This document shows, piece by piece, positions 49,477 through 58,804 of a stretch of DNA of 64,000 bases. The notes under the pieces are model-generated. The model made no database searches and was not told the DNA's origin. It saw nothing but the letters and a program-made list of their open reading frames with translations. The position numbers were made by a program, and so were the translations under genes. Each line of letters starts with the position of its first letter. The first letter of the stretch is position 1. The stretch is from Candidatus Brocadiaceae bacterium S225 (GTDB lineage Bacteria; Planctomycetota; Brocadiia; Brocadiales; Scalinduaceae): contig SMSL01000002.1 of the NCBI GenBank assembly GCA_007859995.1, positions 124,001-188,000 of the forward strand, given 5' to 3'.

Positions 49477-50520
49477 TTAGTCTGCGTTTGAAAAACCGTT
49501 GTATAATACGGTTTTATAATTGAAAATCATACTTTCTAAATTTATAAGACTAGTATTTACCGCCATAACATATCCGTACTCCTGCCCATGCCTGATGTGC
49601 CTTTTGACATTACAGGCAATAGCGGAAAATATTAACTGCAATTGAGTGCGCACTTCATTCCGATGCCGTGATTTCCTAATGCCATGCCCTCGGACAAGCT
49701 CACTAACCATTGCCTCTGCACCAGCCCGAATAGAACATTTTTTCCGATATCCGGTGCCTTCCATATATTTGTGATGACGAGAAGCGCCTACATAAGATCT
49801 CTCATCAAGGGTTAGCGTTGCGACCTTTACACTAATCTTTACCGGACATCTCTCCTTCAACTGACATGCAGAACAAACGGCCGCAACAAAATGCACTATT
49901 ATGTTCCCTGTCTTAGTACTACGAGTCTGGTCTATAGGTTCTTGTTTTCTTCTATCTCAACTTTAAAATCCGCCACATCCAAGGGACGTTCTTCTGCATT
50001 ATACGCCTCGAAAGATCGGGAACGACCAGAACTCGGGCCTTCAAGTAATATCTCATTAGTCTGAGAATCCAGAACGGTTTGGCCATTGACAAAACCAGCA
50101 TCTGCATATTGCGCATCTGGTTTCATGTCGGATTCTTCTAAACGTTTATGTATCTGCGGAAGTTCTTTGGAGCCTGCGGTTGTTGACGGCGTCGTTTCTA
50201 CATCGGTGATAAATTGTGTTTTGTCGCTTTCTTCACAGCTTTCAGTTATAAATCCTTTTTGACCGCAAACTTTTTGTTTCCCTTTTCTGATATAACGAGC
50301 ATCGGTGTTGTGAGGGGTAGATATTATTTTTTCACCATTTGGTTTCTCACGTATGACAATCTCCATCTTTCCGCCATCCGTACCTTCTGCGGTTTCACAT
50401 TGCTGATCAAATATTTTTACCAATGTTTTAAAGCTTTCATAATGCTTGACCTGGTTATGGTTGATAAATGTTTCATATAAATAAATACATATCCTTTGCC
50501 ATAACCTTTATTTGCCGTCG
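49477..50520 (-). pseudogene. Broken IS1182-type transposase
   Basis: Two reading frames make up one decayed DDE transposase. The 5' part (ending 49932) has YESFKTLVKIFDQQC, HNTDARYIRKGKQKVCGQ and YADAGFVNGQTVLDSQTNE. The 3' part (49477-49896) has SACQLKERCPV, the HHKYMEGTGYRKKCSIRAGAEAMV segment and CNVKRHIRHG. These are in different frames, and the N-terminal third is missing or frameshifted around 50503-50520. The element ends are not clear. It is an inactive insertion remnant. Confidence 0.75.
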
Positions 50521-52602: not shown

Positions 52603-52630
52603 TTGACAAATTGAAACATTTATGTAAATG
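52603..52630 (+). promoter_or_regulatory. Candidate promoter of the c-di-GMP riboswitch leader
   Basis: TTGACA at 52603-52608 is a perfect -35 element. TAAATG at 52625-52630 is a fair -10 with a 16-base spacer. Transcription would start about 30 bases before the riboswitch. Confidence 0.45.
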
Positions 52631-52662
52631 TACATCTAAGGTGTTAATGGCCTCACAATAAA

Positions 52663-52782
52663 TCTTGATAAAGGCAAACTCTGGGTGACTAGGGGGCGCA
52701 AAGTAAAGGGTCTTTGAAGGTATACAGGCGTGTGTTGCGAATATGAAGAGTGTCCCTGCCGTCTGTAAACAGTCCAGCAAGA
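52663..52782 (+). ncRNA. Cyclic di-GMP-I (GEMM-I) riboswitch
   Basis: The core fits the GEMM-I pattern: GATAAAGGCAAAC, then a stem CTCTGG/CTAGGG capped by the GNRA loop GTGA (52679-52694), then GCGCAAAG (52696-52703), GGGTCT at the start of the third helix and TGCCG near its end. TCTTG (52663-52667) pairs with CAAGA (52778-52782) to close P1. A perfect terminator begins four bases later. The GEMM-I class binds cyclic di-GMP; some members respond to cyclic AMP-GMP, and I cannot say which applies. The next gene on this strand is the STN protein at 53300. Confidence 0.82.
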
Positions 52783-52785
52783 GAC

Positions 52786-52828
52786 AGCCTTACTGCCAAA
52801 AGATATTTTTGGCAGTAAGGCTTTTTTT
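52786..52828 (+). terminator. Intrinsic terminator after the riboswitch
   Basis: A 16-bp perfect stem, AGCCTTACTGCCAAAA with its complement, is followed by seven T's. It is one of the clearest terminators in the window. It starts four bases after the aptamer P1 stem, so the aptamer probably decides whether transcription passes it. Confidence 0.9.
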
Positions 52829-52909
52829 ATTGTATCAGCACGCTAGTTTAAAACTATGCACTTTCTGTGCAAGGCTTTCAGCTGGTTTTCAAAAAATTTA
52901 TTGACAATC

Positions 52910-53032
52910 GGTGAACAAAGAACGTACGCGGAAGCTATACTACTTTAAGTTACAGTAGATTGTTCACCAGAATAAAAAGGACTTTTAGTCCGCTTTTTTT
53001 GAACCTCTGGACTTTCAGTCCAGGGTGGTTCA
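52910..53032 (+). other. Second structured leader with terminator-like hairpins
   Basis: GGTGAACAA (52910-52918) pairs exactly with TTGTTCACC (52960-52968), enclosing a 41-base loop with inner pairs (CTAC...GTAG). A hairpin GGACTTTTAGTCC (52979-52991) followed by GC and seven T's is a second intrinsic terminator. A nested hairpin TGAACC...GGTTCA with CTGGACTTTCAGTCCAG inside lies at 53000-53032. The order resembles aptamer plus terminator, but I do not recognise the class. Confidence 0.5.
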
Positions 53033-53299
53033 GTTTCAGGATATTTACTTAGGTTTGCTTACTTAGAGGCAACCCTTGAAGTGGCACTATTCTCCATGTG
53101 GTTAGCATTCATGTGCCCAACACACGGAGAACAGGTTTTGACGAGTGGTCCACGCAGCAGAGAGGTTTTAACCCTCACAATCACTGTGGTTGCGTTAATC
53201 ATTTGTATTATAATTAATACATTTTTTATTTAAATGTAATCTTAGTTAATCAATAATATAAATACTATTAATATTCTATACCAAAGAGGGAGGGATAAG
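53033..53299. other. Leader region before the STN gene
   Basis: About 265 bases with no gene. A stretch at 53090-53135 has an inverted TTCTCCATGTG/CACACGGAGAA pair. Before the gene the sequence becomes very AT-rich, with TATAAT-like hexamers that could serve as a local promoter. Confidence 0.4.
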
Positions 53300-53956
53300 A
53301 TGGTCTCATTTTTAACTCTTAAAAAGGCTTTGATTATCTGCTTTATATTTGTTTCTGCAGTGTTTTTATTCCATAAAGGCGTTTCTTTGGCGGGAGAGAA
53401 GAATCCATCACCAGGTAAGGAATTTTCAGGTGTCGATTTTAAAAATGGTCTATTGAAAATATCAGTAGACAAACAAAGTTTTAAAAAGGTTATGAGTGAG
53501 ATAGCGAAAAAAGCTGAGATAAAGATTTTTATTTATTTTGCTGCTGAGGAGGAACTAACTATAGATTTTGATTATCTCCCCTTGGAAAAGGGACTAGTTA
53601 AGCTTCTAAGAGGAAGAAACTACGCCTTCTGTCGTTCTCGGGAAGACCAACAGCCTGACAGACTAACGAGTGTAACGGTCTTTAGTAGAGAAGAAGGTGT
53701 ATCTGTGGCAATGAAGGATGGCCAGCAGCAGAGACTGGAAGAGATTCTACAGCGCAATTTTATAAACGAATTGGATATGAGACAAAAAATTGACGAAGCT
53801 ATGGAGAAGGTAAAGGAGGCTGGCATCTCTAAAGAGATAGAAATGGTCAAAGGTGAAATTGGACAAGATTTTCTCCTTGATGAGAAAAACGTGGCAACCA
53901 TTGTAGAAAAAATAAACATGGCTTTGGATGGAATAACGGCAGGTGGAAGCCTTTAA
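53300..53956 (+). CDS. Secreted protein with STN (secretin/TonB short) domain
   Basis: A 218-aa exported protein. The N-terminal segment (residues 7-31) is a hydrophobic signal that ends in SLAGEK. Residues about 50-112 match the STN fold of secretins and TonB receptors (LKISVDKQSFKKVMSEIAKK and LTIDFDYLPLEKGLVKLL). The rest is helical and charged, without a channel domain. GAGGGAGGG is an excellent ribosome binding site. It may help assemble or gate an envelope complex, and lies downstream of the c-di-GMP riboswitch. Confidence 0.65.
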   Translation: MVSFLTLKKALIICFIFVSAVFLFHKGVSLAGEKNPSPGKEFSGVDFKNGLLKISVDKQSFKKVMSEIAKKAEIKIFIYFAAEEELTIDFDYLPLEKGLVKLLRGRNYAFCRSREDQQPDRLTSVTVFSREEGVSVAMKDGQQQRLEEILQRNFINELDMRQKIDEAMEKVKEAGISKEIEMVKGEIGQDFLLDEKNVATIVEKINMALDGITAGGSL

Positions 53957-54435: not shown

Positions 54436-55044
54436 ATGAAAAACTTATTAAAACTTAGTATTATGTTGGCCGCTCTGCTTGTTTTTACAGGAACAAATAC
54501 CGTTATTGCCCAAGAAGCTGTGGTAAGCTCTAATATAGAAGCTGGGGTAAGCTCTAATATATCAGCTAGCGCTCTCCCAGGTAATATAAATTTTGATCCG
54601 CCATCTCTTTTTGCCCAAACACTCCCTCTGCAAACCTATATGAATAACAATACAAATGCAGTTTTTGTTGGTGGTAACGGAGCAGTGTTAAGCGAAAATA
54701 GTAACTTTGGAGTAACTGGCCATAGCTCTCCTAATTTCTTAGCGTACAATCCAAGTACACAAAATAGCGATGGCAGTATTCCGGCCTTACCAGCAATAAT
54801 CTACTTTCCCAATCCAGTCAACAATGTTAGTATGCTTGCAGGAGCCGGCTCCACAACTGGCACCGTTATATTGGCCGCGCTTGACGCTAGTTTCACTGTT
54901 GTCGCTGTTGATGTAAAAGCAATTACTCCAGCGATGCAGCTTTTATCTGTAGCCTGGAATCCAGGAATTCAAGCAGTAGTTGTTGTGGGTAACTTTACTA
55001 GTGCGAATAAATGGATGGTTCTGGACAATTTGAGATTTCAATAA
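54436..55044 (+). CDS. Secreted protein, truncated paralogue of the metalloprotease N-domain
   Basis: A 202-aa exported protein with a signal peptide (1-25, ending VIAQ). The body is almost identical to the first 202 residues of the neighbouring protein at 55289, including NPVNNVSMLAGAGSTTGTV. A TAA follows LRFQ, where the paralogue continues with Asp-Gly-Gly. It therefore lacks the calcium repeats and protease. The fold looks like a beta-rich surface or binding domain. It could be functional on its own or be the debris of a tandem duplication. Confidence 0.7.
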   Translation: MKNLLKLSIMLAALLVFTGTNTVIAQEAVVSSNIEAGVSSNISASALPGNINFDPPSLFAQTLPLQTYMNNNTNAVFVGGNGAVLSENSNFGVTGHSSPNFLAYNPSTQNSDGSIPALPAIIYFPNPVNNVSMLAGAGSTTGTVILAALDASFTVVAVDVKAITPAMQLLSVAWNPGIQAVVVVGNFTSANKWMVLDNLRFQ

Positions 55045-55116: not shown

Positions 55117-55257
55117 TCTAAATTGAGCGATTTTATTTCCTATACTGTAGTAGCCGTAGGCTTTAGTCTGCGTTCGCTCTCATCAGATGGGTGCATGTGG
55201 ATTTCACGTAAGTTACGCAACCTAAAGGATGCGGCTACTTAAATCGCTCAATTCAGG
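55117..55257. mobile_element. MITE-like element, copy 2
   Basis: 141 bases, about 85% alike to the element at 52196-52333. It has the same terminal inverted repeats (CTAAATTGAGCGATTTTA...AAATCGCTCAATTCAGG). The flanking target duplication is TATAA/TAAAA (one mismatch). The hairpin here is CGTAGG/TCTGCG with loop CTTTAG: against copy 1, two pairs change on both sides (C-G to A-T and C-G to G-C), so pairing is preserved. It splits the leader of the metalloprotease gene. Confidence 0.85.
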
Positions 55258-55288
55258 TAAAACAATAAAACAAAGGGAAGGGAATCAA

Positions 55289-56965
55289 ATGAAAAACTTA
55301 TTAAAACTTAGTATTATGTTGGCCGCTCTGCTTGTTTTGACGGGAACAAATACTGTTATCGCCCAAGAAGCTGTGGTAAGCTCTAGTATAGAAGCTGGGG
55401 TAAGCGCTAATATATCAGCTAGCGCTCTACCAGGTAATATAAATGTTGATCCGCCACCTTATTTTGTCCAAACACTCCCGCTGCAAACCTATATGAATAA
55501 CAATACAAATGCGGTTTTTGTTGGTGGTAACGGCGCAGTGTTAAACGAAACTAGTAACTTTGGAGTAACTGGCCATAGCTCTCCTAATTTCTTAGCATAC
55601 AATCCAGGTGCACAAAATAGCGATGGCAGTATTCCGGCATTACCAGCAATAATCTACTTTCCCAATCCAGTCAACAATGTTAGTATGCTTGCAGGAGCCG
55701 GCTCCACAACTGGCACCGTTATATTGGCCGCGCTTGACGCTAGTTTCGCTGTTGTAGCTTTTGATGTAAAAACAATTACTCCAGCGATGCAGCTTTTATC
55801 TGTAACCTGGAATCCAGGAATTCAAGCAGTAGTTGTTGTGGGTAACTTTACTAGTGCGAATGAATGGATGGTTCTGGACAATTTGAGATTTCAAGATGGT
55901 GGATGCACGCTTGGAATTGACTCGGATAACGACCGTTTGGATGACTGCTACGAGACAAACACAGGTGTATATGTAAGTCCTACTGATACTGGGACAGATC
56001 CTTTAAATCCTGATACGGACGGTGATGGTATCAAAGACGGTGACGAAGTACTCGGAACACTTAGCAACCTTGATTTGCCTGGAATGGGGGCTAACCCTCT
56101 CCGAAAAGACATTTTTATTGAATATGATTGGTTTATAGATAGTCTTGATTGTGCTAACCACTCTCATCGACCCTCGGTAAATGCTGTAAATATGGTAGCA
56201 CAGGCATTTGCTAATTCTCCTGTATTAAACCCTGACGGGACAACGGGTATTACACTTCACAACGACCGTGGACAAGGAGGTCTCTTTACAGGCGGCAACC
56301 TGATCAATGACGCTGACGGGGTACTTACAGGAGGCGTAAACAGTCCGGAATTCATGTCACACAAAGCGGCCAACTTCGCTTCCAATCGGCATGGTTATTT
56401 TCACTATTGTATTTTACCTCACCGATACAATACAAACAGTAGCAGTTCAGGACAAGCAGAGTTGCCTGGAGACGACCTCATAGTTTCTCTGCAATGCTTC
56501 AACAGTGACACTAACGTTAGCCACACAATCATGCACGAATATGGCCACAACGCTAACATTCGCCATGGGGGTAACGTCAATTGCAACTATAAGCCAAACT
56601 ACAATTCTGTGATGAATTATAAGTACCAGTTTCCTGGTGTTGACAATAATTGTACACCTCCGGGAGATGGTGTCTTGAATTATTCTATTGGCGACCGTAT
56701 TGTTCTCAACGAAAATAATCTCAATGAGAACAACGGCATTTGTGGCGCTCCGCCTTGGGATTGGAATGGGAACACTATAATTGAAAATGGTGTAGCGTTT
56801 AATATAAATAGCCAGGACTCCGGCGACTGTGGTGGCACATTTACTACGCTTACCGATTATAATGATTGGGCAAATTTGAGCTTTACAGGCCTACAGGATG
56901 CTGACGGAGCGTTGCCTGTTCCACCTGAAATCATTGATTGTGATAACCCGGCGCCTGAGAACTAA
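55289..56965 (+). CDS. Secreted metzincin metalloprotease with calcium-binding repeats
   Basis: A 558-aa exported protein. After a signal peptide (1-25) comes the domain shared with the 202-aa neighbour. Residues 211-255 (DSDNDRLDDC and DPLNPDTDGDGIKDGDEV) are type-3 thrombospondin calcium repeats. The protease domain follows, with HEYGHNANIRH at 416-426 (ligands His416, His420, His426 and catalytic Glu417) and the Met-turn near Met442 (SVMNYKYQ). The start ATG 55289 has the same context as its paralogue; the frame open to 55229 lies partly inside the MITE. Its substrate and target are unknown. It probably acts outside the cell. Confidence 0.85.
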   Translation: MKNLLKLSIMLAALLVLTGTNTVIAQEAVVSSSIEAGVSANISASALPGNINVDPPPYFVQTLPLQTYMNNNTNAVFVGGNGAVLNETSNFGVTGHSSPNFLAYNPGAQNSDGSIPALPAIIYFPNPVNNVSMLAGAGSTTGTVILAALDASFAVVAFDVKTITPAMQLLSVTWNPGIQAVVVVGNFTSANEWMVLDNLRFQDGGCTLGIDSDNDRLDDCYETNTGVYVSPTDTGTDPLNPDTDGDGIKDGDEVLGTLSNLDLPGMGANPLRKDIFIEYDWFIDSLDCANHSHRPSVNAVNMVAQAFANSPVLNPDGTTGITLHNDRGQGGLFTGGNLINDADGVLTGGVNSPEFMSHKAANFASNRHGYFHYCILPHRYNTNSSSSGQAELPGDDLIVSLQCFNSDTNVSHTIMHEYGHNANIRHGGNVNCNYKPNYNSVMNYKYQFPGVDNNCTPPGDGVLNYSIGDRIVLNENNLNENNGICGAPPWDWNGNTIIENGVAFNINSQDSGDCGGTFTTLTDYNDWANLSFTGLQDADGALPVPPEIIDCDNPAPEN

Positions 56966-58142: not shown

Positions 58143-58752
58143 CTGTTACCGATCGCATCATTGATCGAACAGTCTGAACCATTGCAACAGATACTAGCCG
58201 GTTATGAGAAAGTGTTCGAACGTGACTGGCAATCTATGATGGCCCAGAAATTGGGACTAAATGCTTTCAGTCCTGAAACTGACAATGAGTTCGTAACAGA
58301 GCTACAGGCGATATTGCAGTTAGCCGAGACAGACATGACAATTTTCTACCGTCAGCTTGCAAAGATTGATATCGGCATCGGATCTTTGAATGATGTACAT
58401 GATGCAACACTACCGGAACCTCTTTTGAATGCTTACTATGTACCTGAGCAGTTAACTAATGATAATGTAGCGCGTATCGGCAATTGGACACGCTGTTACA
58501 AAGCGCGGGTATGCAAAGACGGTACGTTAAACTATACGAGACGCAAGCGGATGAACGCCGTCAACCCGAAGTATGTGCTGCGAAACTACCTGACCCAACT
58601 AGCCATTGACAAGGCAGAGCAAGGTGATAATTTTATGGTAAATGAATACTGGAGTTACTGCGCCGCCCTTACGACGAACAACTCAACAAAGAAGAGTATG
58701 CTGAGAAGCGTCATCGAGCAGGCTGTTCGATGCTTTCGTGTAGCCCTTGATG
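58143..58752 (+). pseudogene. selO: Remnant of SelO (protein adenylyltransferase) gene
   Basis: The segment LIEQSEPLQQILAGYEKVFE and then KRMNAVNPKYVLRNYLTQLA match the C-terminal third of SelO/YdiU. The catalytic N-terminal part is missing; a stop lies just before 58143. The final stretch shifts frame: after about 58657, the +1 frame reads [20 protein letters not shown] then GCSMLSCS, the normal SelO end, stopping at about 58752. It is therefore both truncated and frameshifted. Confidence 0.8.
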
Positions 58753-58804
58753 TCCCACTTTCACGGTTAAGTGATTAACTATTGGTCAAATTTCAGTGGA
58801 TCTA

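Follow-up and report, generated by a model that had tools for sequence, protein, structure and literature searches.

A probable transcriptional ON-type c-di-GMP-I riboswitch ahead of a gene for an exported-looking STN-like protein in an anammox planctomycete

It is highly probable that a transcriptional ON-type c-di-GMP-I riboswitch, with an exported STN-like gene as its likeliest target, is encoded in the DNA investigated here, a stretch of 64,000 nucleotides that is called the window below and comes from Candidatus Brocadiaceae bacterium S225, a member of the Scalindua family. The class of riboswitch is known and the host is unusual; the more interesting observation was the expansion of the class across the order Brocadiales, which comprises the anammox Planctomycetes. 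Anammox bacteria grow in granules and biofilms and are not amenable to routine genetics, and therefore a c-di-GMP regulon that can be read from DNA gives testable predictions. It predicts which surface proteins of these bacteria accompany the attached state.

Aptamer and terminator in the window

A cmscan of the window placed RF01051 (c-di-GMP-I) at 52663-52800 of the + strand; the score of 54.1 bits exceeded the gathering score of 35, and the E-value was 8.8e-8. A GEMM-I aptamer had been proposed at this site in the initial annotation, and the covariance model bore it out. RF03167 (c-di-GMP-I-GGC) also aligned with the aptamer over its full length, with 56.7 bits against a cut-off of 59. By family membership, the window element is a genuine c-di-GMP-I riboswitch.

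The core elements of the family were present. These were GGCAAAC, with its GGC placed at 52673-52675 (+) by the RF01051 alignment, the P2 hairpin CTCTGG-GTGA-CTAGGG at 52679-52694 (+), seen in both the cmscan alignment and the fold, GGCGCAAAG, and the 3' strand GACAGCCTTACTGCC. Both the GNRA tetraloop on P2 (GTGA in the window) and the conserved GGCAAAC / CGCAAAG of the class were found. The P3 5' strand GTAAAGGGTC (52703-52712, +), which would be the antiterminator partner, was identified from the model and the fold and was conserved in Brocadiales copies. It was followed by a 70-nt P3 extension (52713-52782, +), which prolonged the P3 helix via GTCTTTG/CAAGAGAC as judged from the fold and from relatives. 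The closest relative (L093, genome G004) carried a P3 insert of 72 nt and was 77-79% identical over the aptamer. The aptamer had earlier been taken to end at 52782 and to be closed by TCTTG/CAAGA as P1. This layout was rejected, since the covariance model and the relatives put CAAGA (52778-52782) in the P3 extension. The model ended at 52800, with GACAGCCTTACTGCC (52783-52797) as the 3' side.

Upstream of the aptamer, TTGACA at 52603-52608 (+) was a candidate -35 element for the riboswitch promoter, and another copy in the same genome (L004) likewise had TTGACAAA 5' of its aptamer. No clear -10 was seen at the usual spacing from this TTGACA. The candidate was regarded as weak because the promoter scan did not pick it.

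An intrinsic terminator was located at 52786-52829 (+), consisting of a hairpin (52786-52822, -25.4 kcal/mol alone) and a T7 tract. The presence of a strong terminator was confirmed. It did not start four bases past the aptamer as described, since its 5' arm was the 3' strand of the aptamer and positions 52786-52797 were common to both. The shared strand GACAGCCTTACTGCC (52783-52797, +) formed the 3' side of P3 and the ligand pocket, and also most of the terminator 5' arm. In the case of the whole leader, the minimum fold contained the terminator (-57.1 kcal/mol, compared with -43.5 when P3 was enforced). In the case of the leader only to 52802, before the terminator 3' arm, P3 was the minimum fold, with -33.8 kcal/mol. 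The RF01051 match and the terminator on the aptamer strand agreed with the proposal of a c-di-GMP riboswitch that controls transcription termination. From the sequence, aptamer and terminator are predicted to be mutually exclusive, and an ON switch is most likely. Since 52783-52797 is common to both structures, the ligand should block termination.

In the proposed mechanism, P2 and the long P3 would fold first while RNA polymerase traverses the leader. With c-di-GMP bound, 52783-52797 would be kept in P3 and the ligand pocket, the terminator hairpin would be blocked, and transcription would go on. With the ligand absent, the same strand would pair with the 3' arm (to 52822) in a far more stable hairpin ahead of T7, and transcription would stop. 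The read-through RNA would cross an insertion of 213 nt derived from IS200/IS605 and would then reach the exported STN-like gene at 53300. The seven GGDEF domains in the window's genome were counted for the explanation as a c-di-GMP switch.

Mobile-element relic and the putative target gene

The T-tract ended about 470 nt before the ATG of the gene at 53300, and about 210 of these were filled by a MITE-like element at the terminator T-tract (52823-53036, +). The element was 77-85% identical to dispersed copies in four genomes of the same genus (G008, G004, G010 and G009), and its left edge was ambiguous by a few T/A. Alignment of 15 copies gave a common left end TTTATTGTATCAGC and the right-end palindromes GGACTTTYAGTCC and CTGGACTTTCAGTCCAG. 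A longer copy (L100) encoded a Y1_Tnp transposase (PF01797, E 1e-38). The window element shared both ends with this transposase-coding copy, and it was therefore assigned as a non-autonomous element of the IS200/IS605 type. It was 213 nt long, contained no gene and was the sole copy found in its own genome. A weak terminator-like hairpin GGACTTTTAGTCC-GCTTTTTTT lay within it (52979-52999, +), with a T-run that was shorter in most other copies of the element. The closest riboswitch relative (G004) carried no such insertion, and the remaining stretch of ~260 nt (53031-53299) had no similarity to any locus compared.

A gap of about 520 bases had been noted and called unusual. The gap itself was confirmed, at about 470 nt from the T-tract, and it was partly explained by the 213-nt relic. 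The aptamer-to-gene distance exceeded 500 nt in 9 of 62 ON-type switches, so a long leader was not exceptional. Other readings of this region were rejected. An ancient gene remnant was dismissed on the dissimilarity of 53031-53299 to the loci compared, and for a hidden RNA family the only matches were to miRNAs, fell on the terminator hairpin and were spurious (E 0.05-0.7). The repeated GGACTTTYAGTCC hairpins were not a regulatory family and corresponded to the palindromes of the IS200/IS605 element. Targeting of terminators by the element was also dropped; among 17 left flanks, only that of the window was a clear strong terminator, and a T-rich left flank was common.

The nearest intact gene downstream, with RBS GAGGGAGGG, was located at 53300-53956 (+). 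It encoded an exported-looking protein of 218 aa with an STN-like N-terminal part and was taken as the putative target. Homologues had 55-68% identity in the same genus (G010, G008) and 20-33% in more distant Brocadiales. By eye, they consisted of an STN-like part and then HEAT-type repeats. In the initial annotation, the gene product was a secreted protein with an STN domain. The exported-looking ORF on the + strand stood. Pfam gave no STN match for the protein even at E 10, and the resemblance was by eye. An alignment-free AlphaFold model had a mean pLDDT of 42 and could not be used, and a search of the genome contigs with the STN protein found no relative.

The genes that follow such switches were compared. 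In the window's genome, all five riboswitches with a readable downstream gene (the window copy, L001, L002, L167 and L168) preceded a signal-like N-terminus. Across Brocadiales, a signal- or membrane-like N-terminus was found after 29 of 62 ON-type switches and in 38 of 148 control ORFs, with both the predictor and the gene calls being crude. The earlier expectation of such switches ahead of exported surface proteins was thus consistent with the results in the genome and in the order. Since all five readable targets in the genome were exported, control of the STN gene by the switch is plausible, although it was not conserved. The pair of riboswitch and STN gene was not conserved because the homologues lacked the riboswitch and its closest relative preceded another gene. 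The link was also uncertain because of the small transposon remnant between them, with its weak terminator-like hairpin. With these points weighed, the balance tilts slightly toward control of the STN gene.

It is quite possible, though on balance doubtful, that the riboswitch is an orphan, that is, a functional RNA whose former target was lost by insertion and rearrangement, with the STN gene served by its own promoter within 53037-53290. The relic directly past the terminator and the dissimilarity of 53031-53299 to all loci compared were in line with such a loss. No c-di-GMP-I element was found in the surrounding 14-19 kb of the STN homologues of G010 and G008, and their upstream DNA was dissimilar. 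In G004, the closest riboswitch relative was followed, ~535 nt after the terminator, by a different and very long secreted protein. In addition, a perfect TATAAT near 53209, in an AT-rich stretch and with a poor -35 element, could serve the STN gene as a promoter of its own. However, no other intact gene intervened between switch and STN gene, leaders of similar length occurred in the family, as seen above for the nine distant genes and for G004, and exported targets were the rule in the window's genome. A transposon relic can part a riboswitch from its presumed target, and assignment to the nearest gene may mislead.

That the riboswitch governs the later paralogues and the protease was considered far less probable than that it governs the STN gene. 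The initial annotation implied control of the entire downstream set, which was unsupported. The paralogues and the protease lay beyond further gaps of ~480 and ~180 nt. The ORFs at 54436-55044 and 55229-56965 shared about 200 N-terminal residues. The second ORF added a TSP3-like repeat and a metzincin-like HEYGHNANIRH, for which the Pfam hits were sub-threshold. Farther out, a C-terminal fragment of SelO (adenylyltransferase) was found at 58161-58778, as was part of a DDE transposase gene at 49477-49896; both were signs of gene decay flanking the riboswitch region.

Ligand, switch direction and spread in Brocadiales

The G at 52673, the first G of GGC, aligned with the position that we take to be G20 of Vc2. 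Because this position held G and not A, c-di-GMP is the expected ligand of the window aptamer. It is unlikely that 3',3'-cGAMP is sensed instead, even though GEMM-I members of Geobacter sense it (PMC8683041, PMC9262584) and A occupies the specificity position in a copy from another family of Brocadiales (L016, G021). The change linked to 3',3'-cGAMP binding is G20A (PMC6274999), and the window aptamer retained G.

The design was then followed through other genomes. A pattern scan for the switch core gave matches in records of Ca. Brocadia and Ca. Scalindua sediminis and in Planctomycetes MAGs. A 160-nt query of the switch matched 39 of 197 genomes searched, and all 39 were within Brocadiales. 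Nearly all of the 79 related Brocadiales aptamers shared the ON design. Among 56 distinct aptamers with a P3 of the GTAAAGGGTC type, the terminator 5' arm was the shared strand in 55. When at least 10 of the 12 pairs were demanded, 53 of the 56 qualified, compared with a mean of 0.9 after shuffling, where the downstream sequence was randomised and the T-runs were retained. Two copies in the window's genome (L167 and L168) had altered three strands jointly (P3 GTAGAGG, shared CCCTAC, terminator GTAGGG), and both pairings were kept. One-sided A/C mismatches in P3 were seen in L135-L143 and were counted against compensation. Most strand columns were near-invariant across the 79 copies, and because of this conservation the compensation rested on few independent events.

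An OFF switch following the earlier layout, in which the aptamer ends at 52782 and bound ligand leaves the terminator free, is very improbable. In the GCC-type copies L001 (own genome) and L011, the terminator is separate and its 5' arm is able to pair with the 5' strand of P3, which suits an OFF switch. For the window, the covariance model puts the aptamer 3' strand within the terminator, and the near-universal overlap and the three-way compensatory change point to the ON switch.

The window riboswitch had many near-identical counterparts in anammox bacteria, often placed before genes for exported proteins. Genomes of the genus Brocadia gave 56 (G030), 45 (G037), 44 (G032), 43 (G053) and 42 (G048) RF01051 matches. 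Such numbers, with many copies of one ON design, were unusually high for a single class. The window's genome, which was 79% complete, contained at least six c-di-GMP-I elements (the window copy, L001, L002, L004, L167 and L168), and L001 scored above the RF03167 cut-off. P3 inserts spanned 8 to about 79 nt across the copies. We tentatively propose, with confidence just short of even, that one ON leader design in dozens of copies per genome forms a c-di-GMP-wired programme in Brocadiales, largely for exported and surface proteins and with the window copy included, and that P3 tolerates inserts of this range, repeat elements among them, with the core intact. In the literature searched, which included few subscription papers, neither an account of such an expansion nor anything relevant on riboswitches in anammox bacteria or Planctomycetes was found, which is no proof of novelty.

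Several individual copies were of separate interest. L001 (own genome, C2:4373-4451) and L011 were GCC-type aptamers and, judged from their separate terminators, probable OFF switches alongside the ON switches. L016 (G021:C132) consisted of two tandem aptamers, one of which had AAAAGCAAAT with A at position 20 and was a candidate 3',3'-cGAMP sensor beside a G20 copy. In L027 and L031, the P3 loop contained a palindromic repeat (AGGGGCGTATTGCAATACGCCC in L027 and a near copy in L031), an apparent insertion with the core retained. One protein of 89 aa (KEKxKRK...CLMCGKKFISRGPHN) recurred ~110-120 nt past ON-switch terminators in Brocadia, at L018, L031, L068, L073, L077, L079, L081 and L110.

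Comparison with known systems

The window aptamer had the conserved core, the P2 with a GNRA loop, P3 and the pocket strands in common with RF01051. However, its P3 held 67 nt where the model has about 16. It aligned over the full length of RF03167, with a score 2.3 bits under the cut-off. The inserted element resembled IS200/IS605 elements and MITEs in its right-end palindromes and T-rich left flank, and longer copies carried a Y1 transposase. In contrast, the window copy was geneless and only 213 nt long.

The closest parallel in switch logic was the pilM riboswitch of Geobacter metallireducens, an ON-type GEMM-I member in which aptamer and terminator are likewise mutually exclusive (PMC9262584). 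In pilM, the terminator takes the strand with the ligand-pairing C, and the ligand gives read-through (PMC9262584). The terminator 5' arm of the window similarly lay over the aptamer 3' strand. The two differ in that the ligand of pilM is 3',3'-cGAMP, whereas G20 predicts c-di-GMP for the window. In addition, the window P3 carries the 70-nt extension, and the organism and the target are unrelated.
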